Assembly (NCBI GenBank): GCA_949152475.1
Contig: OX424558.1
Coordinates: 35,536,651 to 35,600,650 of the forward strand
Reading direction: 5' to 3'
DNA length: 64,000 nucleotides
DNA from: Terebella lapidaria
Taxonomy: Eukaryota; Annelida; Polychaeta; Terebellida; Terebellidae
Position numbers and translations under genes: made by a program. Below are positions 10,578 to 41,410 of the stretch, piece by piece; the first letter of the stretch is position 1, and each line of letters opens with the position of its first letter. Under the pieces are notes generated by a model. It had not been told where the DNA came from. It searched no databases and saw only the letters and a list, made by a program, of their open reading frames with translations.

Positions 10578-11892
10578 GCCACTGCAATAAGAGGTCTTTA
10601 ACAACGGCAGATGCGGTCGAAGAAAAAGTTCAAGATTACGGCAGACATGCAACCTGAAGCACTCTGCCAAGGTAACTGGAGGTGGCAGACAAACAGCTCT
10701 CGGATGTCTTTACGATTTCAGGTTGGATACGCACAGTGACGTCAATGGATGATTTCAAGTGGCTGTCTAAGATGTTTTCATATAACATAATAAACGTTAA
10801 CGGGTCTCTAATATCAGGTTTTTTTTATCATGACATATTCCTTGGTATTGACCACAAAGATATATACAGTCTTATGAGACTGTCAAATGTGTATTATTGT
10901 GATTATCTCATCATTCAATTACATTTGTAATAACGGTTGTTACACTGAATAGTGCGCGCTTTGCTTGATGAGACATTCATTTGAGTATTCAACTTTCACC
11001 ACTAGATTTGGCAATTACATTATTGTCAAATAATTGGCATTATTTCTTCCTAACTACAACATGACATGAAAAAAAAACCTCTGGAAATGGGAAATATATA
11101 TATATTTCAATGTAGTTGGTTGTATATAACTTGATGCAAGTTTCCATCAACTTATTGATCAGATTCCCTCAAGTGGCATTTGTTAGAGCTAAATTGGCAA
11201 TAAAATAATCAATGATTTGGAATTCATCCATTCTCGGAGATACGCCCTGATGTGAACAAAGGTTGAACATGCAGGTGGATCTATTACACTATGAATATAC
11301 AAAACATGTATGACGCTCCATCGAAAAATATCCTCTGAAGTAAACCAGAAAACTGAATAGATTTCCATTGGGAATACACCTATATACTTGGCATTGTCAT
11401 AATATACAGCTGCGCATTGAAATAACACAAATGAAACGCCTCAGGTCAGATTCCATATGCAAACATGTACGACCAATCATACTGTACATTTCTCTAAAAT
11501 CATTGCTCCATGCCGTAAAATTGTGTAGTTCCCATACGAATAGGAGAAAGATTATGAGATTTGAGAAACCAAGGAAGAATGCTATAAAGAATAATATTGC
11601 ATCAGATACCAGTGTACAACAGATATCGATCAATCATCAATCTCTAAGAAAATAATAAAAATGATCTGCACATACCGCAAGAACACAAACAGCACAAGCA
11701 TCAAAACGCCAGCCCAATGTGCAAATTAGCGCTAAGTGAAAATAACGATCCATCCCCTCTTTCAAAGTAAATATATCGTGAAATATTTGTTCAGGTGACG
11801 CAAGCATGTCGCCAATATCCTAACCTTTTGTTTGTTTTACCCAGACTGATGTTTATATCCAAATTACTCCAGTAAATTAGCTGGATATCATG
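10578..11892 (+). repeat. Triplicated 1.3-kb block, copy in A1
   Basis: The block runs from CCACTGCAATAAGAGGTC to GGATATCATGCT. Further copies are at 16540-17825 and 20636-21853. Frames on both strands (for example 11368-11655 + and 11397-11633 -) are also open in the 16.5-kb copy. Most nucleotide differences change the amino acid and the third copy is frameshifted, so I do not call a gene. Confidence 0.8.
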
Positions 11893-12086
11893 CTTGACGC
11901 TAAGAATGAAAAAGGTAATTGATCTATGCATAGTGGAACCAGTACAGACTGATGTCTTTCAACAATGACATAATGACATGGGCTATTGTCCATGAGATAT
12001 TCCGACTGACATGGCAGATAAAGTGCAGACAATAGAGGAAGTAATATGACATGTAATTTTAGTGCGATTATAAATTTGATGCACAT
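11877..12086 (-). CDS. Candidate short secreted peptide ORF (unrecognised)
   Basis: A 69-codon frame starts with ATG at 12086. Its N-terminus looks like a signal peptide: a short basic start (MCIKFIIALK) followed by a leucine-rich hydrophobic stretch (ILLPLLSALYL) and then a polar, cysteine-containing tail. No family was recognised. Most of the frame (to about residue 44) and 176 bp upstream lie in the 308-bp block that is perfectly identical to the A2 copy. In A2 the frame stops after 44 residues (21911-22045). No splice sites, poly-A signal or strong start context support it. ORFs of this size are common by chance in AT-rich DNA, so this is a flag and not a confident gene. Confidence 0.2.
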   Translation of the reverse strand: MCIKFIIALKLHVILLPLLSALYLPCQSEYLMDNSPCHYVIVERHQSVLVPLCIDQLPFSFLASSMISS

Positions 12087-12262
12087 CGATAGACTGGCTG
12101 CAAAGAAATCATGGAATCAGAGCCAGAAAATTATATATATTGATAAACAGATGTTTTTTGTCGCAGAATACAGGCATAAAATGTAAATGTTTGAAAATGG
12201 AAATTTACTGTATCATAAAATTGAACAGCTAAATATATTTTCCCCTTCTTGTTATTAATACT
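11955..12262. repeat. 308-bp block identical between A1 and A2 (A1 copy)
   Basis: It matches 21914-22221 base for base. The flanking 78 bp upstream differ at ~14% and the 200 bp downstream at ~8%. That contrast is not expected from uniform decay of one duplication. Recent gene conversion or strong constraint would explain it. Confidence 0.9.
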
Positions 12263-13610
12263 GTTAATAAGTAGATATCGATCTGGATATGCACTAATGT
12301 TTTTGTGATGGAACCCCGCGGAATGGCGGGAAGTAATTTGTAGCTATTCAAAGCCGAGGAACTGCGTGCTAGTTTGTGATCGAAATTTGCATACACTTGT
12401 AGATGTATTAAGTAGCAGCTCCCACGGGAGTTTCGCAGTGGTAACATTTCATTACACGTGAGATACCTTCTTGGTTGTGTTGTTTACGTCAATATCTCTA
12501 CATAGTGATTCGAATGGTCAACACTAACTAACACCATTGGTATGTAGTTACGGATGTAGTAGCATGGATGCCCTGTGTTTTTCGCATGTTGTTTTCTGAT
12601 AGAAAACATGTCAGACTGTCATGGAACTGAAACAGGTAATTGAATTAAGAAATCAATGGCTTTAATAAAATCCAAACAACTAGCAGGAAAACGTAGTGAT
12701 CTCTTGGATGCATGCCAAGCACCTATCTGGAAACAATATTTTAAAAACCAGTTAATAAATTGCACTGCGCCCAAGAGAACTTATTGTGAAGCATGCACGG
12801 GTTGTGCGTGCGAATGTCCCCCCTGGTTGAGAAAATGATGTATTCCCCGTTCATAAATATTAGCTACGTGTGGCAAACTCTTCACCTCGTTCGAAAAAAC
12901 TTTTGCTCCATGGAGGGTATACTTGAATTGCTTTGTGACAAAAGTATTTTGCTTCCGAGTAGGAATATAGTACTTCACACAGAATTACACATAATATATG
13001 TCTGATCAAATCGATTATAAATGTTTCATTACCATTAGCCACTACTTTATTCATATTGGCGCCTAATATCATTAATCAGACTGGCAATGTACACCTAGTC
13101 AACTGATCGCAACACGCGAGAGCGCACGTGCAGACAGTAAATATCAAGAAGACGTGATGAAATATTACGTGCTTGGAGTATGAATGTGAATGTGGAAAAA
13201 GACTGTATGAGGAAAGAGACAGACTGTACGATAATTTATAGAAAACTGGGGAGTCTCACTTTTAATGTACAATGAGAATAAGATTCCCCTGGTGACGCTA
13301 GTGTGGATTCGGAATTACATGGTTCCTCGGGCTTTCTTTGTAATGCTAAAGTGTTAGATTTATTCGCTTGCATTGATCGAAATCTTGTCATGTGCTAATG
13401 GTGAAATATTGACATAATAAAAAAAATACCATTGAAATTTAACCATCTTCAACCATCACTCAGAGTGATGTGGAAAGGTAGATGCTCACACTTTACAGCT
13501 TCATCTTGGGTGATAGAATTTTGACTTTGGAAAGTACCATAATGTACCATTAAAAAGAAAACCTTAATATAATGGGGGTACCTGCTAATGCCATGTGCTT
13601 TTGGGGCTCT

Positions 13611-13741
13611 AAAACAGTCTATTTTGCCCAAGAAGTACAGAAAATGTCATGTCCATTGTCTGCATTATGCAAAAACAAACATGACAAAATTTAATTTACC
13701 TTTTTGACGTTTCTGTACGTCTTTGGCACAGTAGACTGTTT
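13611..13741. mobile_element. 131-bp MITE-like foldback
   Basis: The arm from 13611 (AAAACAGTCTATTTTGCC...AAGTACAGAAA) pairs with the inverted arm ending at 13741 (TTTCTGTACG...TAGACTGTTT), about 31 bp with roughly five mismatches. CTCT occurs directly on both sides (13607-13610 and 13742-13745), consistent with a 4-bp target duplication. The A2 counterpart carries a larger deletion here, so it does not give a clean empty site. Confidence 0.6.
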
Positions 13742-13767
13742 CTCTGATTTATCTATACCCGAATTAC

Positions 13768-13975
13768 ATGGTGGCGATCCTGGTGACAAACAGGAACCCC
13801 ATTGTTTGGGTGGGAATCCAAACCTCCTGCACTGTGATGGTTATTGCTTCAAGAGCCACCCATCCTATCCACTCGGCCACACAGGCAGTTGTGATGTTGA
13901 TATTGACGAGTAATGTGTTTCCCGTCACCTTCTATCTTGCGTGGTCCACAAACAAAAGTTGTTTCGTAGACAAGA
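13768..13975 (+). pseudogene. Possible decayed exon with transmembrane-like frame
   Basis: The frame from 13768 reads as two hydrophobic segments with a polar linker (...VWVGIQTSCTVMVIASRA..., ...AVVMLILTSNVFPVTFYLAW). It is richer in G+C than its surroundings. The hydrophobic part is kept in A2 (about 23408-23545) and partly in A3 (~33795-33850, ...VIPVTFYL...), but A2 has a stop upstream of it. No family could be named; a multi-pass membrane protein such as a receptor is only a guess. It is not an intact gene. Confidence 0.2.
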
Positions 13976-14084
13976 AATTTCCCCTCCCCGCAAAAAAAAA
14001 AACAAAAAAAAAAACAGGCAACATTGTTCTATCCACGAACGCTCGTATCTTTAGCAGGCAGGAAATCTGGACAGTTCTGTTGAC

Positions 14085-14135
14085 AGTTCCACGATCTGTT
14101 TACGACCGCTTAATTGATACAGATTGACTGTGAAG
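14085..14135 (+). repeat. Recurrent ~50-bp motif shared by all arrays
   Basis: The core 'GATCTGTTTACGRCYGYNTAATTGATACARATTGA' style block occurs here and at ~23655, ~34045, ~35935, ~39445 and ~41605, with weaker versions at ~63650 and ~63950. It is the clearest single element tying arrays A, B and C together. Its role is unknown. Confidence 0.65.
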
Positions 14136-15097
14136 AGTTGTGTTTATGTGGTGCCTCTCCTCAGAGTAAACGCATAGATTGGACTAATTGATTGAAAACA
14201 GGAAGCGTATGTCTCTGGCTTACCGAGGCCATTGAGCAAGCCCGAGACACTTCAGCTGCAAGACTAGCTTCGGCCCCTTTCCCCAATATTTGTATCCACA
14301 AATATATTTGTATTTCTAAAGCATAGACATAGAGAAAGGTACACACATAAGACTGGTACTGGAACTTATCATACAAAAGACCCAAGAACAAAAACGATTC
14401 ATCACCGAGTCACTCGACTTATGTGTTACTAATTACAAACTAGTGAAATGTTGATACTTGCATCCAACACTAGTAAAGTCCACAAGCAAACTAACGAAAG
14501 GTAAACTCTTATTCTATTCTGAACGCAAATGTCATGTTTCAGATAAATAGCAATGATGTGCATTACTGACGAAATCCTGTGATCCAGGTGCAAAATGGGT
14601 TCTTGCTCATCCAACAAGTCAGTTCATGAAGTTAATTTAAGTACACTGCAGTCATAGTGAGAAACTGAACGGTACTCTCTGACATGGCACATGACCGCAA
14701 ATTTAAATGATATCACTTTTGGAGTTCAACGGGATTTTTGCTTGTATTGGCAAATTCTCTTGTAGAATGAACGAAAATAACACTCCGTTTCAGAAATGCT
14801 ACATCGGGTTGCTTCCGCCAGATTATTACAAATTATATGGATTTATGTAAAAAACATACCCAACTTATGACCAAACAACATGGAGTGATATTACTAGAGA
14901 ACGACCAGCCATTTATGTTGTTTGTATATGAGATCCAGGAATGAGTTCCTAACGATGTGTATGTTGCAAGTAGAAAATAGAGAGATCGATACTGGGAAAG
15001 TCGTCCGCATTGCACGTGTACGAGCGGTTCATAACCAGACAGCAAGGCACGTTCCGATGTGACAAAACCAATCACTAAAAGCAAACTTTTAATTTTT

Positions 15098-15960
15098 GAC
15101 ATTAGAGCGTTGGGGGCGAAGCCCCCAACTCTCTACATGTCTATGTGCTGACTTTTTCATGGAGGTTTCATACCAACCTATCGACGCCCGTTTTGGCATG
15201 TAAACCTTTGTACACCTACTTCAAATAAGGATTTTCTTCGTCCTTGACATAAAATCTCTCAATTTGATGGCAAGCTTTGAATATTCCACAGATATATAAT
15301 GCATTAATCGATGTGATAGGTTTGAGAAAATTACGCAAAATGGTCAGCTCGTCTGAAAAACGTCAAAATGGCGGAGCCGATGGAAATTCACGTTCCCAGA
15401 ATGCAAAGCAAATTTTACCGCAATGAAGCGTACTTTGGAACGCACAATTTTCCGTGCAGCATTTTGTGCATGCATGTACATGTAACTTTGCATGTGGCCT
15501 TTTTTTGACGTTATGAAGTAAACACAACGATTCGTCTGCGGTACCACGACTACATTTACCGTAATTTGACATTTTTTTATTACATGAGCAGGTGTTCCTT
15601 GCTGGGTTGCGAAACCTTTTTATTTTAAACTGGTCTTTCAATTTGCTCAGTATGCATGTGTTATCTATATCATGATATCGGATACAGATATTCCTCATAG
15701 TTCCCAATATTTTAAGGAAATTTTATTGAGCTTCAATATCATTCAATCAGGCGTATCTGTTTTATTGAGTTCAAAATAAATGGAATATGATTGAAGTACG
15801 ATTATGTGTTTCATCATAATATAGGGAATGAATTGGAATCATGTGGGGCATGATATGGTTCAGTTTTCATTTTTTTGCAAGTGGGGGGGGGGGGGGGGAG
15901 ACGTTGTGTAAGATACAGTCAGCTGTCGTGGTGCTGATGATGTGCTCGAGCTCTAATGTC
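15098..15960. mobile_element. 863-bp MITE-like insertion with 11-bp TIRs
   Basis: GACATTAGAGC at 15098-15108 is repeated inverted at 15950-15960. The A2 counterpart (~24675-24683) lacks the whole segment, along with ~15 bp of neighbouring sequence. Just inside the left end is a perfect hairpin: GTTGGGGGC at 15109-15117, a GAA loop, and GCCCCCAAC at 15121-15129. The interior holds a G18 run at ~15882-15899. It also has promoter-like motifs at 15364-15376 (CAAAATGGCGGAG, YY1-like) and 15393-15404 (TTCCCAGAATGC, ZNF143/THAP11-like). A 46-codon frame starts at the ATG inside the YY1-like site (15368-15508). No transposase was found. Confidence 0.75.
15364..15404 (+). promoter_or_regulatory. YY1-like and ZNF143/THAP11-like motifs
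   Basis: CAAAATGGCGGAG (15364-15376) resembles the YY1 site, which in animals often overlaps a start codon just downstream of a promoter. TTCCCAGAATGC (15393-15404) is the core of the ZNF143/THAP11 motif. Having both within 41 bp suggests a captured promoter and first-exon start, but no transcript can be inferred. Confidence 0.4.
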
Positions 15961-16052
15961 ATCTCCCGCAGTTAGCTGCATTTTCTTGTTGCTAACATTC
16001 CAATCCTCTGTTTACGCAATCTGTAGTTCCCGTAATATGTAGATAAACTGTA

Positions 16053-16054
16053 AT
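16053..16054. other. Paralogous empty site for the ISL2EU element
   Basis: The A1 sequence TAGATAAACTGTAATTTGTC continues without interruption. In A2 the same sequence is split after TAAACTATAAT (24735) and resumes at 31436 with ATTTGTATCC. The single AT here is duplicated around the element there. Confidence 0.95.
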
Positions 16055-16539
16055 TTGTCTCCTTGTGTTTTCGAAGATGTTAAATGTGAACAGCAAGACT
16101 TCATGCTATGCAGAGTAAATATTCATCACATGTATTGTTAAGTATTTTTATTATGTAAAATTAATCACATTGTGACACCTGCAACTATGTCAGCATCAGA
16201 AAGTGAATTTGTAACTGACCCAGGTTGTAAATGAAAAGGATAGCTAAAATAATTATCATGCTGGTTCAAATTCACCAGTCGGCATTGCGGAATTGTGAAA
16301 TCTCAGTTGGACGAATGTAATCAGAATCATTCAGATGTGTTGAAGGAGCTGAATATAGATATAAACAAATCTATGATTTCAATCGCTCATATCAAATATC
16401 TATGTTGCACAGCACGTATATATAAAATTAAGTGCAATATTAATCTAGTCCTGATGGTAATGAATGGTCTAGAAAATGGCTTCTGTTCACCCAATCATAT
16501 CACTTTATGAATCTAATTTCCGTACAATTTCGCGATTTC

Positions 16540-17825
16540 ACTGCAATAAGAGGTCTTTAACAACGACAGATGCGTTCCAAGAAATCATTTCAAGATTACG
16601 ACAGACATGCAACCTGAAGCACTCTGCCAAGGTAACAGGAAGTGTCAGACAAATAGCTCTCGGATGTCTTTACGATTTCAGGTTGGATATGCAAATAGAT
16701 GATTTTAAGTGGCTGTCTAAGATGTTTTCTTATAACATAATAACCCTTAACCAGTCTCCGATATCAGTTTTTTTATCATGACATATTCCTTGGTATTGAC
16801 CACAAAGATATATACAGTGTTATGAGACTGTCAAATGTGTATTATTGTGATTATCTTATCATTAAATTACTTACTCGTTCAACATTTGTAATAACGGTTG
16901 TTACACTGAAAAGTACACGCTTTGCTCGATGAGACATACATTTGATTATTAAACTTTCACCAGTAGACTTGACAATTACATTATTGTCGAATAATTGGCA
17001 TTATTTCTTCCTAACTGCAACATGAAATGAAAAGATATACCTCTGGTAATGGGAAATATATATATATTTCAATGTAATTGGTTGCATATAACTCAGAACA
17101 TTGATGCAAGTTTCCATCAACTTATTGACCAGATTTCCTCAAGTGACATTTGTTAGAGCTCAATTGGCCATAAAATAATCAATGATTTGTAATTCATCCA
17201 TCCTCGGAGATACGCCCTGATGTGAACAAAGGTTGAACATGCAGGTGGATCCATCGAAAAATATCCTCTGAAGTCAACCAGAAAACTGAATAGCGTTCCA
17301 TTGGGAATACACCGTATATACTTGGCATTGTCATAATATACAGTTGCGCATTGAAATAACACAAATGAAACGCCTCTGGTTAGATTCCATATGCATACGT
17401 TTACGACCAATCATACTGTACATTTCTCTAAAATCATTGCTTAATGCCGTAAAATTGTGTAGTTCCCATACAAAAAGGAGAAAGATTATGCGACTTGAAA
17501 AACCAACGAGAAATGCTAGAAAGAATAACATTGCACCAGATACCAGTGTACAACTGATATCGATCAATCATCAATCTTTAAGAAAATCATCAAAAAAAAT
17601 CTGCACATTCCGCAAGAAAACATACAGCACAGGCATAAATATGCCACGCCAATGAGCAAATCACATTATGTGAAACTAATGAGCCTTTCAAAGTAAATTT
17701 ATGGTAAAGCATTTGTTCAGGTGATACAAGCATGTCGCTGGTATCCCAATCTTTTGTTTGTTTTACCCATGCTGATGTTTATATCCAAATTACTCCAGTA
17801 AATTAGCTGGATATCATGCTTTTGT
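16540..17825 (+). repeat. Triplicated 1.3-kb block at the A1/A2 junction
   Basis: This third copy of the block at 10578-11892 and 20636-21853 has different flanks. To its left is the sequence ending A1-type units (compare ~35430). To its right is the sequence beginning A-type units (compare ~5640). It therefore marks the join between two large tandem units. No gene called; open frames on both strands drift neutrally. Confidence 0.75.
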
Positions 17826-20635
17826 CATGCCAGTCCTGCTTCAACATGTCAGTTTTATGGTTATATCTACCACACAAAGAATGGAAAGAGATATATGTGG
17901 CGTTTCTGGGCAGTAGCTTCCTCATGAGCCCACAACATTCAGTTCGTGACTGTATTGTTTTGGAAATACATTTTTTAACACCTTAGACTCGAGGAGTGTT
18001 ATGATTAGTATATAAAACAATATCTGGGTTTTTTTCACACTAAAAATATAGCTCACATTTACGAATATAAATTCAGGAATTTTTCACGAAATCTATAAAT
18101 TGTATTATGCATTGTAAAGACAAAAAGACACACACTTCCATAAAACTGTCTGCACTTCGTACATCGGTTTGGTGCAAGAATTACTACTAGATTTCTACTG
18201 CAACTACTGTTGCAGCCATGCAACGTCAAAATTAAAAAAATATATATATTTCGAGTTTATTATGCCAACATATATTTACAATGCAATTCAAATGACCAGT
18301 TCGCTAATTAGATGAAACTTAATTTTATTGAGAAGACATTAAATACCTAAACATATGCTTATTAACTTTCAAGATGTATGCAGTCGTCACCTGTTGTTTG
18401 ATGTGTCACGTGGAAAACTTTGTTCCATATATGTAGTAGATTGCCTAATTGTTTTGGAGTCAGAACATGTATATTTCATTATATTTTCACAAATATGTTT
18501 CCAATATGCTCAAGACATTATGAGTGAGAATTGACCCGAAATTGACTTGAAGCCAGCCAGCATTTTCTCCTATTCATAATCCAGGAGACAACGCAATAAT
18601 GAACAAAATACATACCATTTTTCATCCTAGACGAATAAGACTCATGACGTGGTTTTCAATAAATATGTCTGAAGAATATCATACATACATTGTGTACATG
18701 CACAGGAAGTCAGAATGCTCTTTGAGTCCGTGCACAAGGGTTCCTTCACCAGGACACCATTGCTCTGATAGCTGGGCTTTCAACACCCACGAAACACTTC
18801 AGATGACACGGGCATATTGTTGCACGGGATTTGACCAACTTGGCAAACATGGTATTGCGCCAATCACCAGGTGCCTTTTTGCTTACAACAGTCACACAAA
18901 AACAAATATAAGGTTTGGGTGCAAACTAACAATAAGAAGGACACTGATGATAGAACAGTGGACACCTGTCATTTCCTTGTTCCTGGGAATGAAGTTCCCA
19001 AATGGAGAAAGAAAAAGATTAGAGAAAGAATATTGAAGAAAGGTGTCATTTATATAAATCGAAATAATGTATGTTTACATCTGACAACTGGAGAAATTCC
19101 CGTTTCAAGGTTAAATGCGTGTACCAAATGAATACGTTTGAAAATGTACAAAATCGGCAGATAAGTCATTGTGGGGGCCCTCATGGGAGAATGCATCTAT
19201 CGAACATCCATGAAAATTGGACACAAATAATTCCATTTTCAGTTTATGTCTTTCACCTCGATAGACTTTCATTTTAGAGCCTAATTCCTAGTTATGACAC
19301 TTCATTCAGATACAACACAGGGTGGTTTCAACCTTGTGGACTTGAGCCAACAAAGGGAAATGAGCAAGTGTTTTAAGGTTGACATCACTAGCTACAATCC
19401 GGACAATTGCCCTAAATGTCGGCATTTACAATAAATGTAACAAGTCAAGAACTTATTGACATACATATATGTATTTTTGTAATGTCTGATTATCTTCTAA
19501 TTAGATTGTTGTAGATCTATGTGATGTTCTCAAGAATACTATCTTACCCAAGAGTATGTACATGTACTTTGTAGGACAAAATATATGTCAATCATAACAT
19601 TCTATTCAGGATATTTCAGGAGAGCTGTGTATTATATGATGTATGTTGTATTTAGAGACAGGAAATTAGCATGTGCCCCTGTGGCGTAGTTGACGCGAAC
19701 ATTTAAAGCCAAATGTCAATCTTCACAGAACAACTAGATTAAAAAGTAATGTCATTCACTAGCTAGACCTTGAGTTGTGAGCATCTGCCTCGAGAAATGA
19801 AAGCTTGCACGAAAGACACTGAGGAGGCCCGTCCATGCAGATGGCTTAGCGTGTCATTCAAATGCTACAATTGTCCCTGATAGGTTGATAATTACACAAA
19901 ACCGTCCTGGAAGTGACAAATCCGGAAATAATCTGGGTAACAAAACCGGTTTGTGCCAAGTGTGGTATGTGTAGAATGACGCATTATGCTAGTTTCAGAT
20001 ACTTCTTCTAGCCACATGCAAGAGTGAATTGAGGATTTTATAGAAAAAAAGACAGATGTTTTTTACTTTCATAATTCATGGGGTGAAGAAGTGAATGTAC
20101 CTATCTCTGGATTAAATTATATCTCTTTATTCAATGAAATGTTCATTGTACAACACATCCAGAGCTCAGTTAGACCTGAATAAAGACACCATAATATTTA
20201 CCTATTATAATGAGAATTTTATTTCAAGCCCAAACACATGGACAAAGTTTGAAAATTGGAAAATCAACTTGGGGCCCACATTAGGAGAACAATGGTAGAA
20301 GTGCATTTATCCAACATCCATAGTACCGGAACTTTCCTACATCCAATTTGGATATTTTATGTTTTCTACGAACACAAACTAAACCGGCAATAGGGATAAT
20401 CCACACTTCTACATTCACTTGGTGACATCACAACATGGGAAAAATTTTCAACGAACGGAAGTGTGCAGGTGGGTCTGTTCACGTGGTCATTTCTCTTTGG
20501 GTCACTTGACACTAAATGTCAGCACACTTACACGATATGTTGTTGATTTAAGTCGTTTGCGGCCTTGGCAAATAATTGAAATCCGCTTTGGCCAAATGGA
20601 CATGTTGGCAACCCTACAATAAATACTGCCAACAG

Positions 20636-21853
20636 CCACTGCAATAAGAGGTCTTTAACAACGACAGATGCCTTCCAAGAAAAAAATTCAAGATTACGGC
20701 AGACATGCAACCTCAAGCACTCTGTCAAGGTAACTGGAGGTGGCAGACAAACAGCTCTGGATGTCTTTACGATTTCAGGTTGGATACGCACCGTGACGTC
20801 AAATAGATGATTTTAAGTCACTGTCTAAGGTGTTTTCATATAACATAATAGACGTTAACGAGTCTCCGATATAAGTTTCCTATCATGACATACTCCTTGG
20901 TATTGACCACAAAGATATATACAGTGTTATGAGACTGTCAAATGTGTATTAATGTGATTATCTTATCATTAAATTACTTACTCGTTCAACATTTGTAATA
21001 ACAACGGTTGTTACACTGAATAGTACACGCTTTGCTTGATGAGACATACATTTGAGTATTAAACTTCCAACAGTCGACTTGACAATTACATTATTGTCAA
21101 ATAATTGGCATTATTTCTTCCTAACTACAACATGAAATGAAAAAAGATAAACCTCTGGAAATGGGAAAAATATATATATTTCAATGTAATTGGTTGCATA
21201 TAACTCAGAACATTGATGCAAGTTTCCATCAACTTATTGACCAGATTAATTCCCTCAAGTGACATTTGTTAGAGCTCAATTGGCCATAAAATAATCAATG
21301 ATTTGGAATTCAGCCATCCTCGGAGATACGCCCTGATGTGAGCAAAGGTTGAACATGCAGGTGAATCTATCTACGCACTGAAAAAACGAATGAAACGCCC
21401 AGGTTAGATTACATATGCATACGTTTACGACTAATTATACTGTATATTTCTCTAAAATCACTGTTTCATGTTGTAAAAGTGTGTAGTTCCCCTACAAAAA
21501 AGGAGAAAGATGATAAGACTTGAGAACCCAACGAGGAGTGCTATAAAGAATAATACTGCATCAGATACCAGTGTACAACAAATATCGATCAATCATCAAT
21601 CTTTAAGAAATTAATAAAATGATCTGCACATTCCGCAAGAAAACAAACAGCACAGGCATCAAAACGCCACCCCAATGTGCAAATCAGCGCTATGTGAAAA
21701 TAATGATCCATCCCCTCTTTCAAAGTAAATATATCGTGAAATATTTGTTCAGGTGACGCAAGCATGTCGCTAATACCCTAACATTTTGTTTGTTTTACCC
21801 AGGATGACGTTTATATCCAAATTACTCCAGTAAATTAGCTGCATATCATGCTT
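20636..21853 (+). repeat. Triplicated 1.3-kb block, copy in A2
   Basis: Counterpart of 10578-11892 and 16540-17825. It has several indels, including one that shifts the frame open in the other two copies. No gene called. Confidence 0.8.
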
Positions 21854-21910
21854 CACACTAAGAATAAAAAAGGTAATTAATCTATTCATACTGGAACCCG
21901 TACTGTACTG

Positions 21911-22045
21911 TTATCTTTCAACAATGACATAATGACATGGGCTATTGTCCATGAGATATTCCGACTGACATGGCAGATAAAGTGCAGACAATAGAGGAAG
22001 TAATATGACATGTAATTTTAGTGCGATTATAAATTTGATGCACAT
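21911..22045 (-). CDS. Candidate 44-aa secreted peptide ORF, A2 copy
   Basis: Same ATG, same leucine-rich signal-like start and same residues as the frame at 11877-12086, because it lies almost wholly in the identical 308-bp block. It ends after 44 codons at the block's edge. The tail after the hydrophobic segment is about 18 residues with one cysteine. Unrecognised; could be chance. Confidence 0.2.
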   Translation of the reverse strand: MCIKFIIALKLHVILLPLLSALYLPCQSEYLMDNSPCHYVIVER

Positions 22046-22221
22046 CGATAGACTGGCTGCAAAGAAATCATGGAATCAGAGCCAGAAAATTATATATATT
22101 GATAAACAGATGTTTTTTGTCGCAGAATACAGGCATAAAATGTAAATGTTTGAAAATGGAAATTTACTGTATCATAAAATTGAACAGCTAAATATATTTT
22201 CCCCTTCTTGTTATTAATACT
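21914..22221. repeat. 308-bp block identical between A1 and A2 (A2 copy)
   Basis: Perfect match to 11955-12262, with much more diverged flanks on both sides. Confidence 0.9.
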
Positions 22222-24735
22222 CTTAATATGTAGATATCGATGTGGATATGCACTGATGTTTTTGTGATGGAACCCCGCGGAATGGCGGGAATTAATTTGT
22301 AGCTATTCAAAGCCGAGGAATTGCGTGCTAGTTTGTGATTAAAATTTGCATACACTTGCAAATGTATTAAGTAACAGCTCCCACGGGAGTTTCGCAGTGG
22401 CAGCATTCCATTACACGTCTCATAGTACTGAACTACCTTCTGGGATGTGTTGTTTACGTCACTGGTCAACACTAACTTACACCACTGGTATCGTAGTTAC
22501 GCAAGTAGTAGCATGGATGACCGGTGTTTCTCGCATGTTGTTTCCTGATAGCAAACATGTCAGAATGTCATGGAACTGAAACAGGTAATCGAATTAAGAA
22601 ACGATAATCAATGGCTTTAATAAAATACAAACAACTAGCAGGAAAACGTAGTGATCTCTCGGATGCATGCCAAGCACCTATCTGGAAAAAACTCTTCGCC
22701 TCGTTCAAAAAAACTTTTGCTCCATGTAGGGTATACTTGAATTGCTATGTGACAGAAATATTTTGCTTCCGAGTAGAAATATAGTACTTCACACAGAACT
22801 ACACATAATATATGTATGATTAAATCGATTATAAATGTAGCATTACCATTAGCCACTACTTTAATCATATTGGCGCCTAATATCATTAATCAGACTGGCA
22901 ATGTACACCTAGCCAACTGATCTCAACACGCGAGAGCGCACGCGCAGACAGTAAATATCAAGGAGACGTGATGAAATATTACGTGCTTGGAGTATGAATG
23001 TGAATGTGGAAAAAGACTGTATTTGGAAAGAGACAGACTGTACGTAAATTTATAGGAAACTGGGGAGTCTCACTTTTAATGTACAATGAGAACAAGATTC
23101 CCCTGGTGACGCTAGTGTGGATTTGGAATTACATGGTTCCTCGGGCTTTCTTTGTAATGCTAAAGTGTTAGATTTATTCTCTTGCATTGATCGAAATCTT
23201 GTCATGTGCTAATGGTGAAATATTGACATAATAAAAACATACCATTGAAATTTAACCATCTTCAACCATCACTCAGAGTGATGTGGAAAGGTAGATGCTC
23301 ATACTTTACAGCTTCATCTTGGGTGATAGAATTTTGACTTTGGAAAGTACCATTAAAAAGAAAACCTTAATACAGCTGTTTGGGTGGAAATCTAAACCTC
23401 ATGCACTGTGATGGGTATTGCTTCAAGAGCCACCAATTCTACCCACTCAGCCTCACAGGCAGTTGTGATGTTGATATTGATGAGTATTGTGTTTTCCGTC
23501 ACCTTCTATCTTGCGTGGCCCACCAACAATAGTTGTTTTGCAGACAAGACACCCCCCCCCCCCCTCCCCACAAAAATACAAATCAGGCAACATTGTTTTA
23601 TCCACGAACACTCGTATCATTAGAAGGCAGGAAATCTGGACAGTTTTGTTGACAGTTTCGCGGTCTGTTTCCATCCGCCTAATTGATACTGATTGACTGT
23701 GAAGAGTTGTTTTTATGTGGTGCCTCTCCTCAGAGTAAACGCATAGATTGCACTAATTGATTGAAGACAGGAAGCGTATGTCTCTGGCTTATGGAGGCCA
23801 TTAGGCAAGCCCGAGACACTTCAACAGCAAGAATAGCTTCGGCCCCTTTCCCCCACTTTCATTCACTATTTCTAAAGCACAGACATAGAGAAAGGTACAC
23901 ACATACGACATAAGGTACTGGAATGTATCATACAAAAGACACAAGAACAAGAACGATTTATCATCGAGTCACTCGACTTGTGTGTTACTAATTACAAACT
24001 AGTGAAATGTTGATACTTGCATCCCACACTAGTAAAGTCCACAAGCGAAGTAACGAAAGGTAAACTCTTACCCTATTCAGAACATGAAGGTTATATTTCA
24101 TGATCAGATGGATAGAAACGATGTGCATTATTGACGAAGTCCTGTGATCCAGGTACAAAATGGGTTCTTGCTCATCCAACAAGTCAGTTCATGAAGCTAA
24201 TTTAAGTACACTGCAGTCATAGTGAGAAACTGAACGGTACTCTCTGACATGGTACATAACCACAGAATGATATCACTCTTGGAGTTCAACGGGATTTTTG
24301 CTTGCATTGGCAAACTCTCTTGTAGAATGAACGAAAATAACACTCCGTTTCAGAAATGCTACATCGGGTTGCTTCTGCTAGATTATAACAAATTATATGG
24401 ATTTATGTAAAAAAATATTTATCATTCACATACCCAACTTATGACCAAACAACATGGAGTGATATTACTAGAGAACGACCAGCCATGTTATCATTTATGG
24501 TGTTTGTATATGAATTCCAGGAATGAGTACCCGACGATGTGCATGTTGCAAGTAGAAAACAGAAAGACTGATACTGGGAAAGTCATCCGCATTGCACGTG
24601 TACGAGCGGTTCATAACCAGACAGCAAGGCACGTTCCGACGTGCCAAAATCCATAACTAAATGCAAACTTTTAATTTTTGCTACATTCCAATTCTCTGTT
24701 TAAAAAGTTCCTGCAATCTGTAGATAAACTATAAT

Positions 24736-24750
24736 GCCTCATTTTCATAA
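24736..24750 (+). repeat. Left terminal inverted repeat of the ISL2EU element
   Basis: GCCTCATTTTCATAA; pairs with 31421-31435. Preceded by the AT target duplicate at 24734-24735. Confidence 0.92.
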
Positions 24751-24768
24751 CCCGATTGCGCAATCGAC

Positions 24769-24782
24769 TCGCGCATGCGCAG
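24769..24782. promoter_or_regulatory. NRF1-type palindrome near the left end
   Basis: The 10-mer GCGCATGCGC at 24771-24780, followed by AG, is the palindromic NRF1 consensus, a common promoter site in animal CpG-type promoters. It lies 35 bp inside the element and ~635 bp before the YqaJ gene's ATG, so it is a candidate promoter for that gene. This is inferred from motif identity only. Confidence 0.5.
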
Positions 24783-25006
24783 AAACTACTACGAGCGTAT
24801 CCGGTCGGTACAATGTGACAGCTGGAAATGTCAAAAATCGGACAAGTGCGTTGACAAAATATTGATCGAATCCCTGTTCAGCAAATTCGCTGCAGTTGTA
24901 TGAACAACTGAAAAAGCCGTAGAAACATAAAACAGGTTTGTTTATGACACCTACGAACGTTTTAACAGAATTGTGATGCCTGCAGTCAACCAAAAACGGT
25001 GATGAA

Positions 25007-25111
25007 CACGATAGTATCACCGATTATCGCTCACGCATCAGACCCCCCCCCCTCGTGCACGATAGTATCACCGATTATTGCTCACGCATCAGACCCCCCC
25101 CCCCCCTCGTG
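25007..25111 (+). repeat. 51-bp tandem duplication with C-runs
   Basis: CACGATAGTATCACCGATTA... at 25007-25057 is repeated from 25058 to 25111. Each copy ends in a run of C (about 11 and 14) before TCGTG. It lies in the leader region of the YqaJ gene. Length differences are confined to the C-run. Confidence 0.9.
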
Positions 25112-25414
25112 CATGCAAGGTACTGATACCAGATACAAACCGTACTATAAAAAATGGTGAATAGTAATGAAATAGATCTGGACTGTTACCGTATGTAGCC
25201 TACATCTAATAAAACATTTGTATGAATGTACAAGATAATGCAGTTGCTGTTTAATGGATGAGCACGATAAGCACTTCATTAGTTCATTTAAAGTGATATT
25301 GGCAGGAAAACCATTTTGTTTTAATCAATTACACACTGTATTTATCAAATATTGTATTGCTTCAGTAGCCTAGCACTGTAGTACAAACTGTAGTTCTGAC
25401 TGTTATGAAACCTG

Positions 25415-27952
25415 ATGAGTCAAAATTTTCAATCTTTAAAGGACGTGGCACAGATGTTGAGTGCCGAAGAGTCTGGTGAAGAACTGCAAACTGTTGAAGA
25501 CATATTGAGGTGGCCGAAAAATGAGATGTATCAGTGGTTGCAGAAAAATCATCTTCCAAAGAGCGGGCGCAACAAAGACATCCTGGCCAAGCGAATATTC
25601 CGTCACATGATGGGCGATGACACTTCAGATGAAGACGAAGAGACACAGGATGCAGAGCAAGCTTGTCACCCAACTCTCCCTGTGTGTCCTGGTGAGATTT
25701 TGAAACAATCATTACAACATCCTTTTTTGCAATTAATTACAAATGTAGCATTTGTATCGTTATTTTATCAACATTCCAACAAATACTTCTTTCATTTTTG
25801 TACTTGAGTGTAGGAAAGGATGATGAACAGTGGAAAGAATTGACACAACCAGAGCAACTGCCAAATGTCAGAGAAGATGTCATGAATTACTACCTCCATG
25901 GCAAAAACCCCATCACTGGTGGACAGAAGAACTGTCGCCGTTATTTGGATAAAGCACGGAGATACAGCAAAGAACCCAAGTACATTGGTGAACTTGGTGT
26001 ATGTGACATAGACGATTTCACTATTGTCAAGAGTCATGTAAGGCCGTCAATGCGGAAAGGACTCTATTATTGTACTGTGACACTGTACAAAGACACTGGC
26101 TTAGTGGCAACTGGATCCTGTGAGTGTAAAGTTGGAGCAACAGGCCTCTGTGCACACATCGGTGGAGTCCTTCTACGCTTGGTGAGGCTGCGTAATCCAT
26201 GCACTTACCAGCTTTGTGGATGGGGAATGCCAGGTACCAGTATCCGAAAGGCTGTCAACCCTCAGAAGCTTTTCGATATCAATTGGTGGCCAGGGAAATC
26301 AGACCCCAAAAAACCATGGCCTTATCAGTACAAAGCTGGACCCTGTGGAGATGATTGCCATGAAAGTTTCCTCCGGGAGGTTTTGGATGGTTTGGAAACC
26401 GCTAACCCATCCTGTACTCTGTATGTGCACAAGCGCAAAACACAGTTTGACATAAGTCCATTTGTTGATTCCTTCATGGCGCCCTGTGTGATTGATGATT
26501 CTGTTGACCTTCATGAAGCATGGGTGCAAGACTTGCTCAAGGACTATGCCGCTGACCTGAACATGCCTGTTGACCTGGCGGTCATGTTGGAGAAAGCGAC
26601 CAGAGGACAGGGCTGCAACCCACTTTGGCTCCAAGCTCGTCATCTGATTCTCACCGCATCCAACTTCAGAACCATCGTTAATCGGCGAGAAGACACTGCT
26701 CCAGAGAACCTGCTTAGGTATCTCTGTGGATACAAACAGATTCCCAAGACAAAAGCCATGCAGTATGGCACCAGATGTGAGAATAAAGCCCGGAGAAAAT
26801 ATATGAAGCATCATCAACAGTCTTGCAGCCATGGAGAACAGGTTGTGAAGGTTCAGTCGGTCGGTCTGGTTGTGTCAACACAGCATCCCTACCTTGGAGC
26901 GAGTTTGGACGGTTATGTCAACTGCCCAAAATGTGGGAAAGGTGGCCTGGAAATCAAGTGCCCTTGGAAATTCAGGTTTGTTTTTTGTCAATTTAGCCTC
27001 AGTTCACAATTGCCTACATACATGTATACAAAAGGCTTGTTTGCATATAGAATGGTGTTTGTATTTGTCCACTAATTGGTGTATGTATTTGTAATTGAGT
27101 AATACTCTCCTGAATGAATTTACAGATCTTAGTTCTGTAGCCTACATTGGCTAACACAAATTTTCAAAACAAATATGCCGGCAGAGGCTATTACTGGTGG
27201 AAATCCTACAGACTCGTCTAATAATTTCGTGTGGCCTACTTAAGTTTGTTGGTCATGTTTGGTTAAATGTTGTTTTGTTTTGGTTTGTTGATACTATAGT
27301 GCAAGTACAGATGATCTCGCAGCATGTCCAGTGACAAAGGTTTGTTATTTCCTCACACAACTGTCCCTTATTTTTTAGGACTCTGTTAATAAGTTTTTAC
27401 TTTCTCAATTAATATAAGATATTTCTACTTGAGAAAATAATAGGTCATTTGCAATGGATTTGTTTAGGTCTCTTTATTTATTGGATTCAGGAGACTGAGA
27501 CCCTGTGAGATAGGGCAAGAACCAGACGCCTTCTGCACAACCAATGACCAGCAAGCCTTGGAGCTCAAGCCTCACCACAAGTACTGGTTTCAAGTCCAAG
27601 GACAAATGGCGGTGACGGGCCTACAGTGGACTGATTTTGTTGTCTTCACTTATAGGTAGACTTTAAGCATAAATAAATGTACAGTTTTTGATTTTTTTCA
27701 TGGATGTGTAGGTCATATCGGAAAAGTACACAACATTGTAGGCTTTTCGTATTTTAGTATCGAATATCCTTTTAAGTATTCTTGAGTGTCAGTTAATTGT
27801 CTTTCAGAGGAATTTCTGTGCAGAGGATCGAGTTTAATGCCAAGGTGTGGGAGGAGAATATGCTGCCGAAGCTGAGAACATTCTTCACAAAGTTCAGAGT
27901 GGCTGAATTTTTCACTGGCAGAATCAAGAAAAATTTGAATCTGTACAAATAG
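25415..27952 (+). CDS. SAP/SWIM/YqaJ nuclease-like protein of ISL2EU element
   Basis: Second protein of ISL2EU elements; its exact role in transposition is not settled. Exons: 25415-25691, 25814-26975, 27300-27339, ~27492-27655 and 27808-27952; most junctions keep frame across GT-AG introns. The join between segments 3 and 4 is unresolved, since simple joining meets a stop, so a boundary or small indel is uncertain. Residues ~30-65 resemble a SAP DNA-binding motif. A SWIM zinc site has C195, C197, C205 and H207. The YqaJ exonuclease-type core has E415, D458 and E472-x-K474 (GLEIKCPW), then a QVQGQ motif in segment 4. The last exon ends ...NLNLYK, stop. AATAAA lies at 28276. The ATG at 25415 is the first in frame; the nearby upstream ATG runs into a stop. 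Expected length is ~590 aa. Confidence 0.85.
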
Positions 27953-28275
27953 GTGCGCTGTTATATTTGGTAAAGTAAAGTATATGGTTTGAGATAGTAT
28001 TTGGACATATTATCTAGAATGTTTGTATGAAGTTGATCAACGAAGAATATTAAGTGTACATATACATAATGTATTTCACAATGACTTGAAGAAACATTCA
28101 GGCAATGTGTATGATGCTAGAATGTGAATATTAAAATTTATATCCATAAACATGATAAATGGCAAAGTAAACACGAGTAAAAAACAAGTATTGACATTGT
28201 TGTACCAATGTTATGGTGTCAGTATTGTTGCAAGTCTAGAAAATTCAGTGACCATTAAATAACTTCAACTGGCAG

Positions 28276-28281
28276 AATAAA
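28276..28281 (+). terminator. Possible poly-A signal of the YqaJ gene
   Basis: AATAAA, 324 bp after the stop codon at 27952 and before the convergent transposase gene. Chance occurrence is possible in AT-rich DNA. Confidence 0.35.
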
Positions 28282-28845
28282 TCTTGCTTGAATTTCTATT
28301 CTTGCAAATGTTGTAATTTGTGAGATTTTTTTCAAAGCATGCACCAAAAAAATGTATGTGTAGGTCAGCGTAGTTGAGAAAATTATAAGGTCTGCATACT
28401 TGTGGAAATTGCAAGATCATACATAATTTGTGTATCTGAAGTGGAAAACATAACCTCTATCTAGTGAACCGCTTGTTGATCTATTATTAACAAAATTATA
28501 TAGATTCAAATCAATATCAATGGGTTGGTCCAGACAGAAACATTACATTCCAAAGCAAAACTTCCCACTCTCATTGACTTGCATATATTACACATAACAT
28601 TTGTGAGAATTTAATTACAATCACTCCAAAATTTAGTTAAATATGAAATGAAGTGGACTAGGTTGGAAATATGGCAAAATATTGGGACACTCAGATGCTG
28701 CTATTATGACCAATGATTCTGTCAGGACCAGTCTGGTTCAGGGAAATGGGACACAATTAGTATTACGAATGTTTTACTTTGCACTACAAATATACATACA
28801 TGTACACAAATCATGAAAAACATGTATGACAACAATGAATACTGA

Positions 28846-31377
28846 TTAGACTGCATTGTTACAAAAAGCAGGCAAGTCAAGTGGATTATCTGCACTTGTG
28901 CCTGGCATGAAAAGTGGAGGTAACAGATTAGTGAAAGCAAAACAGTTTGTTATGATCTGCTGTGCAGTAGGTATTCTGGAGATGGGGAAAGTGGTTTGAA
29001 GTAAGCGGTAGTTCTTAGCCTGCTCCATTTTCATTTCAACCACTATACGGGGTTCTGCTATGTCTGTAGTTTTAAAGAAATGATAGTCTGACATCTGTGA
29101 TTTGGACGGAACCTTTGGTGGGAGAATGATGTCAACATCAGATGGAGCTAGATCTTGCACTTCGAAACCTTTGTCAGCCATGATAGACATGCCAGATGGC
29201 GTCAAGTCCAGGACTCGTTCATCCTCCACAATGTGGCGGTCTGATGCTCTCCCTCCCCATGCTGAACTGATATGCATGACATGGCCATCTGGTGTTACAC
29301 CAATCAGCACTTTGATAGTATTGTGATGCTTGTACTCCGACCATGTCACAGCCTGCGCCTCCAGACCGGACGGTTTTTCTGTGAAGAACTCAGTGCAATC
29401 ATACACTGCATAACAATTAGCATGATTTATAAAATGATTTGGCATGTTCATCAGCACTTCTTCTTTTGTTGGCAAGTAAACAAATGAAACGGAATGCTGA
29501 TAAATGAACTGAGTCCAAGTAGTAACGATCCGTGACACTGCAGAAACAGAAACTTTGAACATGTATGACAAATGTTCTTGAAGCAGTCCCAAACGATACC
29601 ACACCATGGTCATCAGGAATTCTGAAGCCATATCCAGCTGGCGACTCGGACCCGGTCTTGACCCATCTCCTCGGCCCTGTGTGCTGGCACCACCCCAGTA
29701 CTTTAGCTCGCCGCTTCCGTGTTTCCTCAGCGAGCTCAGAATCACCAAGAAGGTCGTGAATTTTGTGAAGCCAGTGAGGAATCTGGTTTTTTTTGTCGCT
29801 GATAGACAAATCCTGCACATTTATATCAGGCATCAGAGTTTGGCATGCAAAATCCTTGGTTTCCGGTTTGGGACAGCGACATGTTCCACATCCAGAGGTT
29901 TGGATGCTACTGTCCACCAGGAATGTTGGCTGCTCCAACGTTGAGTCAACCACAACAGAACTGGTCTCTGGTAACTCTGAAGGCGACTGCTCTGGAACAT
30001 CAGTGTCTGATCCCACTTGACGCTCACGGATAGCCTCACATGGATTGCGCCTTGCTGTTCGCTGTTCTGCAACAGGCTTACTGGGAAAAACTGTGGGGAA
30101 AGCCTTTGGATCACTTTTGATAATGTGACAGACAGTGACTATGGCATCATTAAATTAGAAATAAATTGACATTTCAATGACTGAGCAGAGCCGAGAGAAT
30201 GCAAAATGAATTTAAAAAAAAGCATGAAACCGGTGTACCATATACATGATATATTAATTTCCTACCTGTGGAGGCTCACACCGGTGGTTTGAGAATTGTT
30301 GGTACACAAAGGGACACAGCAGTAGGTTCTGTTCTGCGTCACCTTCTTAACTAATGATCTGCAAAGTATATGAAAACAATCGGGTTAGTGCAGTACACAG
30401 AGTATGCCTTAGCCACTACTTGGCACATATTGCATAATATATTGCTACTAAGCACATATAATTGTTGCAAGCAATGCCAATTAAGAATACAATACTACAT
30501 CTGTATGTACAGCGATGTAGCAGGTCAGCAATATTATAAATGATATGTCTATGACAATACAGAGAGTCTTCCATTTTGTATATGTTGATACATACATTTG
30601 TAAATTAGTGTAATATAAAACATGTCATTCTAGTGACATACACTTGAGCAAACCACTTGTCATGAAGCCGATTGACAAGGGAATCCTTCCTTCCTGTGCA
30701 AGACAAGCCTCTCGCTTTCAGTAACGCATATAGGTCTTCCTTTTTCATTTGGCGCAACTTCTCCTTGCTAGGTTTCTCTAGGTCCTGGACGCAGACCTGT
30801 AAAAATAGAAGATGTGTGCTAAATTAAAATATCTATGTCTAGCATTGAATATCTAATAGACATCCATATGAACAGATGCACAATACAATGGCAGCGCCAT
30901 TCACATTGCTTCTGAACCTCATCGAACCCAATGCATGTAATGCATCAATCAATCATAACAATATATCATCAATATGTATGTCGCAGTGAATTGGCCAAAA
31001 GGTAATCTATGATAATTATGGCGAATATGTGATGGTCTTTTATCCGATTTATAACAAGGGAAATTCATTGAAAAACCAGAGGGTCGCGCCTGTAAACGTA
31101 TTTATGGCTGAATGGTGGGCCGGTAACCTACAGCTCTATTGGTTGCTGCCCGCTTCGAAGTGGGCGATAAAAGGAGTTTCAGGTGATATCCCTGCCCAAA
31201 AGCATCATTAAGTTGGCAATTGTTGAGTTATACTATAATATTTTAACAAAAAGTCCTATTTTCTCTCATTTTCACAAGTTTTCGACAAATATATCACACA
31301 ATTTGTCGTTTACAAACCTGCGAAGCGTATGCGTGATCACTTTCCAAAGTTGTCATGTTGTCATCACTACTGTACAT
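28846..31377 (-). CDS. SAP-THAP-DDE transposase of ISL2EU element (damaged)
   Basis: DNA transposase, DDE_Tnp_4/ISL2EU type. Exons read downwards: 31377-31318 (starts MYSSDDN), 30796-30652, 30358-30266 and 30113-28846; joins keep frame with GT-AG borders. Exon 2 encodes a SAP motif (...MKKEDLYALLKARGL...). Exon 3 encodes the start of a THAP zinc finger (YCCVPLCTNN). Exon 4 opens with the finger's closing motif (AFPTVF). The intervening ~40 residues with the last Cys and His have no room in the 152-bp gap, so that exon is deleted. Then comes the helix-turn-helix-like stretch (VSAVSRI) and the catalytic acids D at 29398-29400 (YDCTEF), D at 29173-29175 (MADKGF) and E at 29035-29037 (IVVEMK). 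One frameshift lies at the A8 run 29787-29794. The ATG sits only 59 bp inside the right end. Confidence 0.88.
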
Positions 31378-31399
31378 GCCGGATACGGGAAAACGCAGT

Positions 31400-31411
31400 G
31401 GCGCCATCTGG
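31400..31411 (-). promoter_or_regulatory. YY1-like site in the right end
   Basis: On the minus strand CCAGATGGCGCC lies 25-36 bp inside the right terminus and just before the transposase ATG. The core ATGGCG matches YY1-type sites and could position transcription so close to the element end. Motif evidence only. Confidence 0.35.
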
Positions 31412-31420
31412 CGAATGCCA

Positions 31421-31435
31421 TTATGAAAATGTGGC
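31421..31435 (-). repeat. Right terminal inverted repeat of the ISL2EU element
   Basis: Reads GCCACATTTTCATAA on the minus strand; one mismatch to the left end. Followed by the AT target duplicate at 31436-31437. Confidence 0.92.
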
Positions 31436-32040
31436 ATTTGTATCCTTGTCTTTTCGAAGATATTAAATGTGAACAGCAAGACTTCATACTATGCAGAGTA
31501 TATATTCATCACATGTATTGTTGGTATTTTAATTATGTAAAATTAATCACATTGTGATTCTGCTATATTTTTGCACATCTGCAACTATGTCCCCATCAGA
31601 AAACTGAATTTGTAACTGACCCAGGCTGTCAATGAAAAGGATAGCTAAATGAATTATCAGGCTGGTTTATATAATAAATTTAGCAATCAGCATTGTGAAA
31701 CTGTGAAATCCAGTTGGACAAATGTAATCAAAAGCATCCAGATGTGTTGAATGTGTTTGTACTTCAGATGTGTTGAATGAGTTTGTACTTTGCCATACGA
31801 AACAACTGGCCGAAAATCGTTATCAAATATAATATCTAGATAAAAAGCAATCTATGATATCAATCGTCCATATCAACTTTGTATTTTGAAAAAGCACGTC
31901 CATATAAAATGAAGTGCAATATTGATCTAGTCGTGCGATCCAGGTGAAACATAGCTGTTGGCCAACCATGCATCGCTTCACGAAGCTAATTTCAGTAGAT
32001 TGCATCCACAATGTTAAGTTGTACTCATATCTCGTGACAC
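31436..32040 (+). repeat. Unit A2, part after the transposon
   Basis: Resumes the A2 sequence interrupted at 24735 and aligns with 16053-16460, with indels including a small local repeat of 'GTGTTGAATG(A/T)GTTTGTACTT' at ~31745-31790. No gene seen. Confidence 0.85.
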
Positions 32041-39234: not shown

Positions 39235-41410
39235 ACATATAATATATTAACGTTTTGACATTCAATACTCCAGGAATTTAGTCCTCATCATGTGGCGACA
39301 GTGGCTTTATATTCCACAAAGATAACTTGTATGAATATTACAAAATATTGAATCTAGCGCTGATTAGTAACCACACTCATTTTGTCCACAAACACGAGCT
39401 AATATTTCTGGCTCATATCTCAAGGCATGAAACTGGGTTGATATTTTCACAATCTATTTACGGCTGGGTAATTGATACAAATTGAGCGTGAAAAGCTGAT
39501 ATTTTGTCTGGAGTTTTCCTCCCAACATCGCCTGGTAACAAACTCCATTGATCGAAACATTCAAAAACAGCATGTGCCAGGTACAAAAACTGTTATCAGG
39601 TACGAGAGCAAAGCATGAACGAAACGTTTCAATATAAAAAAGCAGGTTTTGTATAAATTATTCCGTGGAATCAGTAAAATCAGCAACAACAACGGATCAC
39701 AGCCTTATGGAGAACAGTTTTCACTTTGTGTAGTAATGATATATATTGATGGTAAAATGCATGAACATGATGTGAAATATTGGATTATTCGCGTGTGCCG
39801 AGTATGGGCTCGATCTTCCCTCCTTCCCAATTAAGGAGTCAACAAATCAAAGTTCAGTTTACCGAGCGTGTATCCATGCATCAATCTTGTCGATTGCTTG
39901 AATGTACAGTAATGTACATGGACGAGGTTAATTGTTTTGATTGAGATTGATAAGCAACGCTGTTACGCTCAAAACATCTGGTGAGTGACTGAAACCAGTC
40001 CGAAAGATCTGGATATGCCACGAAGTTGCTTATAGACGATTCACAATGTTTAGCCCCATGTCTTTCTTGATATTTGTGACTATTACTTTGACTTCTTAAG
40101 TCATCAACGAAAAACTTAGCGTCCTGGAATGTGGACACATGTCAAATAATCACTTAATTTAGATATAGAAAGGCTGTTTCAAAGTTGTTTTTCAATGTCT
40201 TTTGCTCAAAATCTCTTATGATTACGCACATTTTATGCACATTTATTGATACTGATTCATGGTAGTATTTAATACTATAATTTTCCTTAAGATACTCATT
40301 TCATGGAAAAACTGTTCCCTTTTAGCTCTCAATTAGGACAATTATCCACGCCTCATGTGCACGGCTGTGGGATAAAACACTACAGCATTTCACTGTCAAT
40401 TTGCATTCGCATTCTTGCAGTTTACTCCAGTCGTACCAATAATAGTATTACTAAAATGAAACCATAAAACAACTCATGTTTTATTGCTAAGCAATGATAA
40501 ATAAAACCTTGTTAATACGGCTACATTATGTTTTGAGTGACGAATGCTCAAGGGAAAGGCATGTTGGACGATTTACAACATATGCAAATTTAGTCCATTA
40601 GATCCTGGGATGTGTTTGCAAGTTGATTTTTGTTCATGTATCAAAATTATGATATGGTAATGCGAACAGCATAGCTTTTTTTTGCGGATTGGGATTATTC
40701 TCATTCAATAATAGGTGGTTGTCCTTGTCATGGATGAATCAAGCTCCAATTACAAGAATATTCAATGTCGTCCATTTTGTTCACTAATATGTACATTATA
40801 TATTATGCCACTGCAATTATTGCTTATGCTCGACCTTTTGCATACTGTGGCTGTATTTATCAGTCTGGGTTTACGACATCAGGCGACAATGTGACCATAT
40901 GCCATGCCTTTTGGTGATGCTCGTTATCTGATTCGCAGTTAATCAGTCTGCGTCATATTAATGCTTGATATCATAAATCTTCACTGGCAAATATAACCCA
41001 ATGCAATACACCATATACACTAGCTACAGTGGAAAATGACAATAACATTAAATTTTTATGACGTCCTTGGTGACAGTTAGGGGTGCAAACACACCCTATA
41101 TAATTCAAGCATAGCTGGAAGGTCGTACTTTTCATAGCCCCATTGAACAAAGCAATGTAAGCCATATCATATTCTTATTATTATTCTATTTTATTCTATT
41201 CTATGTAGGCCTGCGATTTTCCAGCCATGTGCTGCTTATCATAGCAATGCTACCGTAACTTTTCGAAATGTATAGCTCAAACCCACATCATATCTGAGGC
41301 GAAACTGGCGTCAGAGTCAGACAATGCATCAACTGTACTTCTCAAGACTGTAGCCTATTCTAATTAGTTTTCAACTGCCCCATATGAAGCTTGTGACAAC
41401 GATTCAACAT
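39235..41410 (+). repeat. Array B unit b (2.2 kb)
   Basis: Direct repeat of units a and c, without their ~1 kb middle section. About 41170-41205 is a short ATT-rich insertion (TATTCTATTTTATTCTATTC). No gene seen. Confidence 0.8.

Follow-up and report, generated by a model that had tools for sequence, protein, structure and literature searches.

An ISL2EU-type transposon in one arm of a local duplication in Terebella lapidaria, with putative SAP-type modules on both of its proteins

The 64,000-nucleotide window analysed here, from contig OX424558.1 of the annelid Terebella lapidaria, holds the two arms of a local duplication, A1 (9397–16453) and A2 (20001–31935), which in blocks longer than 300 bp are 82–95% identical, and it raises the question of what interrupts the A2 arm, how it came to lie there and what the two genes inside it may do. 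The interrupting sequence very probably represents a member of the ISL2EU group, inserted in the A2 arm after the duplication, with a 2-bp AT duplication at the target and a transposase gene that is now damaged, and it may have moved by a two-protein mechanism. ISL2EU was defined as a group of the PHIS superfamily by Han et al. (2015; PMC4482050), and the hosts given for it there are animals.

The element spans 6700 bp (24736–31435), an extent given by its ends, by an empty site and by a second copy on C5. Comparison of the ends identified a left terminal repeat, GCCTCATTTTCATAA (24736–24750, plus strand), and a right terminal repeat that on the minus strand reads GCCACATTTTCATAA (31421–31435); the two agree at 14 of 15 positions and are flanked by AT at 24734–24735 and 31436–31437, in line with the matching repeats and outer AT described in a first-pass annotation of this DNA. 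The same annotation had pointed to an uninterrupted copy of the locus at 16053–16054, and this was borne out. The joined flanks of the element align with 15986–16326, with gaps elsewhere and none at the insertion point, and 478 of 512 aligned columns on the left and 262 of 290 on the right are identical to A1 (gaps uncounted). The empty target in A1 reads A|AT|T (16052–16055, the AT being 16053–16054), and the element with its two matching ends accounts for one AT more than this site. The element is thus proven by the empty A1 site, and the window copy is the only one that proves the 2-bp duplication.

As stand-alone proof of an element, the terminal repeats were rejected, since such pairs also arise near this level in Markov controls. 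Three inverted 15-bp pairs (no more than one mismatch, an AT flanking each end, 3–10 kb apart) occur in the window, and the same search of 40 first-order Markov controls gave a mean of 0.65 and a maximum of 4, with at least one pair in 20 of the 40. The two further pairs, at 1259–5590 and 55451–59969, are at chance level.

The 761.6 Mb genome contains 43 matches to ATGCCWCATTTTCATAA with at most one mismatch (four for a control pattern), and in this list, read by eye, the window element is the only inverted pair closer than 20 kb, so the search for paired ends that the annotation had proposed returned this element alone. The sole other exact end match, on C14, has no partner end among the 43. 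Twelve matches reading ATGCCTCATTTTCAGAA were considered as a small non-autonomous family and rejected as another repeat, because their flanks continue alike past the end sequence (5 of 12 read). Separately, five matches to ATCCCACATTTTCATAA at G000:C2:61086686–61128146, with three intervals of 11.4 kb and a fourth of 7.2 kb, look like a large tandem array.

The right border is further supported by the C5 copy (C5:41283909–41284304), which is 94% identical to window 31050–31438 before the similarity stops; beyond the right end it has only AT and one T in common with the window. A probe covering 31050–31600 matched itself, the C5 copy, the A1 arm (from window position 31436) and 48 bp on C13 that correspond to window 31358–31405, within the element. 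The genome search gave nothing else for the leftmost 275 bp (24736–25010), so the left border depends on the terminal repeat together with the empty site. The exact borders originally claimed thus stand, and the search for sequence shared past 31435 returned nothing beyond the three bases of the C5 copy, with no other copy found that has the left end. Similarity between the C5 copy and the window extends on the transposase side over three blocks totalling 2048 alignment columns (92–94%), and on the left side over only short stretches of window 25007–25333 (79–96%). The left part of the window element also contains a tandem repeat with a C run (25007–25103; 51 bp, 1.9 copies) and, at 25285–25333, about 48 bp of a dispersed repeat found at 87–92% in at least 38 other places of the genome, a count based on 40 scored candidates out of 467.

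The transposase gene lies on the minus strand. Its predicted exon 1 (31318–31356) holds the start codon, exon 2 (30642–30796) a SAP domain and exon 3 (30266–30358) the first part of a THAP domain (CCVPLC...H), named from its similarity to sister genes. Compared with the C5 copy, a deletion joined at 30112–30113 has cost the gene about 240 bp, bounded on either side by GATC, and with them a putative splice acceptor and the larger part of the second THAP half. An A run at 29787–29794 shifts the reading frame relative to the C5 copy, a change that could be an assembly error, and the part with DDE_Tnp_4 and HTH_Tnp_4 (28846–29790) is open. Pfam E-values are 4.5e-38 for DDE_Tnp_4, 8.2e-12 for HTH_Tnp_4 and 8.3e-7 for SAP; the THAP piece of the window, of which only the first part remains, has no Pfam match alone. 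THAP was recognized by Pfam in all three sister transposase ORFs scanned (of nine), and since the sisters keep this part its loss is on the side of the window. The C5 copy is itself damaged, with a stop inside the second part of THAP. The description of the transposon as complete thus holds for its ends and fails for its transposase gene. Because the THAP deletion and the frame change both hit this gene, the window element, as assembled, is predicted to be non-autonomous with complete ends.

Residues D131, D206 and E252 of the transposase fragment are invariant in 16 of 16 rows, a set that includes near-identical copies, and we take them to be the DDE triad. E57, E134, E138, D184 and D213 are likewise invariant in these rows, so the triad was picked by position. 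The fragment gave no match to solved structures at E-values up to 0.1.

The partner gene, on the plus strand, is open over 582 residues under a predicted four-exon model; a five-exon model was rejected as it breaks the frame. Exon 1 (25415–25691) would encode an N-terminal SAP-type module, exon 2 (25814–26975) a SWIM-like CxC..CxH motif and the first part of a YqaJ nuclease, exon 3 (27491–27655) the end of the YqaJ core, and exon 4 (27808–27952) ends in the stop codon. Pfam recognizes YqaJ (6.1e-20; 72.5 bits against a cut-off of 22) and Viral_alk_exo (1.1e-13), together with a SWIM match below its cut-off (12.2 against 19.6 bits); these are the only matches at E-values up to 1, and no Myb/SANT domain is among them. 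The sole solved relative at E-values up to 0.1 is 3syy (1.6e-4 with the whole sequence, 0.0035 with the stretch), presumably LHK-Exo, of the lambda/YqaJ type, which aligns with the partner at the E, D and ExK positions. Among the 12 nuclease rows retained from the 15 with any match (three had too little coverage), E415, D458 and E472 are invariant and K474 of ExK is replaced in one. Cysteines 463, 466, 475 and 495, around the ExK strand, are also invariant in 12 of 12 rows, and these four residues may form a metal site. In the SWIM-like motif, all 11 rows that have letters there keep C197, C205 and H207, and a single row has another residue in place of the first cysteine. None of six other ORFs in the window has a Pfam match above the cut-off.

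Both predicted proteins appear to carry similar SAP-type modules, which would go beyond what the first-pass annotation had noted. In a single profile comparison between alignments of five transposase and seven partner stretches, hand-chosen from the window and the sister matches, the two modules matched with 96.6% probability (E 6.2e-10), and the transposase SAP query also picks up sister partner genes in a direct search, among them L047 (E 2e-4). Pfam SAP was found in five of the seven partner stretches at E-values up to 1, the best at 2.4e-9; the stretch of the window partner has no Pfam SAP match, only SAP_new25 at 0.016, and in whole-ORF scans of two sister partners SAP was lacking in one and below the cut-off in the other. 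The transposase SAP profile matches the SAP-bearing THO1 (E 0.005), and the partner profile matches no solved structure. An unaligned AlphaFold model of partner exon 1 shows, at low confidence (pLDDT 57.6), a helix–loop–helix with helices at 35–44 and 52–66, which had no match in the PDB at E ≤ 0.001; the corresponding model of exon 2 is poor (pLDDT 37.3). Given these Pfam, profile and structure-match outcomes, we rate the SAP assignment as good in the transposase, fair in the partner and weak in the window's own partner. In the literature searched, to which subscription papers and Repbase did not belong, 'SAP domain' was not found jointly with ISL2EU or YqaJ.

The pairing of the two genes recurs across the genome. 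With fragments of one element counted apart, there are at least 126 matches to the transposase and at least 111 to YqaJ, and at least 59 of the former have a YqaJ match within 10 kb, the mean for random placement of the 124 matches on large contigs being 0.385. Among the matches listed, the nearest YqaJ within 10 kb is convergent in 56 cases, divergent in three and on the same strand in none, and 17 of the best 19 transposase matches pair with YqaJ, the exceptions being the C5 copy and C1:80700804. Across 12 copies, the distances of the two proteins are correlated (r 0.88 over 64 pairs, with the near-identical C1_15 and C16_29 left out and two pairs without a value), and none of 2000 permutations reached this correlation. 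The coefficient was 0.85 when three more near-duplicates were dropped (nine copies) and 0.91 when the most distant copy was dropped as well (eight copies), with one of 5000 permutations as high in each case.

The borders of the sister copies point to the same target. In one group, whose two copies are 99.7% alike, the ends read TGTACATTTTCAT and TGCTCATTTTCGT, and each of the two copies has AAT at either end; two groups, of three and four copies, have AAT at one end, and in a further group the three copies read have AT at one end, the next base being T in two of them and A in the third. Overall, all 14 shared borders read (12 copies, four groups) have AT, and the outer base agrees with A|AT|T in 13 of 14, the L030 border having A in place of the expected T; in copies read without empty sites, this AT might itself be element sequence. 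Four sister ISL2EU copies (G000:C3:19874295 and 19884948, which are 10.65 kb apart, C2:27839211 and C7:39133387) are 99.9–100% identical over 3.9 kb around the transposase and therefore represent a recently spreading family. No relatives were found in viral contigs.

A scheme of movement may be drawn from these features. The element very probably inserted into the A|AT|T of the A2 arm, with the A1/A2 duplication already present, and the empty A1 arm shows that it left a 2-bp AT duplication. The SAP, THAP and HTH parts of the transposase would probably hold it to the ends, and its DDE site would cut and join with a 2-bp stagger, as the AT duplication suggests, before the host fills the gaps. 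The convergent gene is predicted to encode a YqaJ nuclease of the lambda-exonuclease type that has a SAP-type module at its N terminus, together with a SWIM-like zinc motif. This nuclease may work on the DNA that the transposase handles and trim its ends or the donor break. As its own transposase is stopped in the assembly, the window copy would be movable only with a transposase from elsewhere that recognises its ends.

On sequence grounds, a putative two-protein link between the transposase and the YqaJ nuclease is attractive. We tentatively extend it to the possibility that in this lineage of ISL2EU the same kind of N-terminal SAP module brings both proteins to the same AT-rich DNA as one two-protein machine, in which the lambda-type exonuclease would process the ends or the donor break; a cluster of cysteines at the active-site strand of the exonuclease may bind metal. 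The YqaJ gene might instead be a passenger with no role in movement, as could be read from its being open in the window though the transposase is broken and from the C5 copy, in the 18.1 kb around which no match to the partner gene was found. Convergent pairing in at least 56 of at least 126 transposase matches, catalytic residues kept throughout the 12 rows, agreeing distances and a similar SAP-type module on both proteins argue against a passenger, which we consider unlikely. For the joint action of the two proteins, the SAP-type modules, the conserved catalytic residues and the agreeing distances make a nuclease role in transposition a testable proposal.

The relative age of insertion and duplication is read from the arms: the element lies in one arm and A1 is empty, which supports the earlier claim that insertion followed the A1/A2 duplication. 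If insertion predated the duplication, both arms would once have carried the element and A1 would have lost its copy by precise excision, of which cut-and-paste elements are capable; this course is very improbable, as the empty A1 site shows no footprint and a duplication followed by the insertion is the simpler account. A diverged third copy near 34.7 kb gives an alignment that beats shuffled controls overall and is heavily gapped at the insertion site. Other repeats mark the window as well: a third partial copy of A1/A2 at 16539–17821 and more diverged stretches at 33.3–36 kb, a separate local duplication (50514–52126 and 57289–58978, spaced by 6.8 kb, 88–91% identical) and direct repeats at 39612–40058 and 41772–42213 with blocks of 300 and 134 nt (88–89% identical, about 2160 bp apart). 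The locus offers a clean empty-site proof of a 2-bp duplication.

The ISL2EU type and the 2-bp duplication proposed at the outset agree with what was found: an AT duplication in A|AT|T, a transposase with DDE_Tnp_4 and HTH parts and a convergent YqaJ gene as second gene. That the element belongs instead to PIF/Harbinger or Spy is scarcely credible: the PHIS groups have a similar DDE domain in common (PMC4482050), against which stand the AT duplication in A|AT|T, rather than TWA or none, the YqaJ partner with no Myb/SANT match and the THAP domain in all three of the sister transposase ORFs scanned.

Compared with known systems, the element resembles Spy in its related DDE transposase and AT-rich target, but it has a target duplication, whereas Spy elements make none (PMC4482050) and mostly have one ORF (PMC9179366). 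With PIF/Harbinger it has a similar DDE transposase and a two-gene layout in common, without the 3-bp TWA duplication and the Myb/SANT partner described for that group (PMC4482050). The exonuclease 3syy and the partner align at the E, D and ExK positions; the partner differs in having a SAP-type and a SWIM-like part towards its N terminus and cysteines that surround the ExK strand. The closest likeness is to ISL2EU, in the AT duplication within A|AT|T, the DDE and HTH transposase, with THAP in sister copies, and the YqaJ partner. ISL2EU elements are reported with a mean length of about 4840 bp and ends that usually, not necessarily, start with GG, the role of their second gene is stated as unknown and the term 'SAP' has no occurrence in the main text of that report (PMC4482050); the window element differs in its 6.7 kb length, in ends that begin with GCC and in the SAP-type module predicted on both of its proteins.
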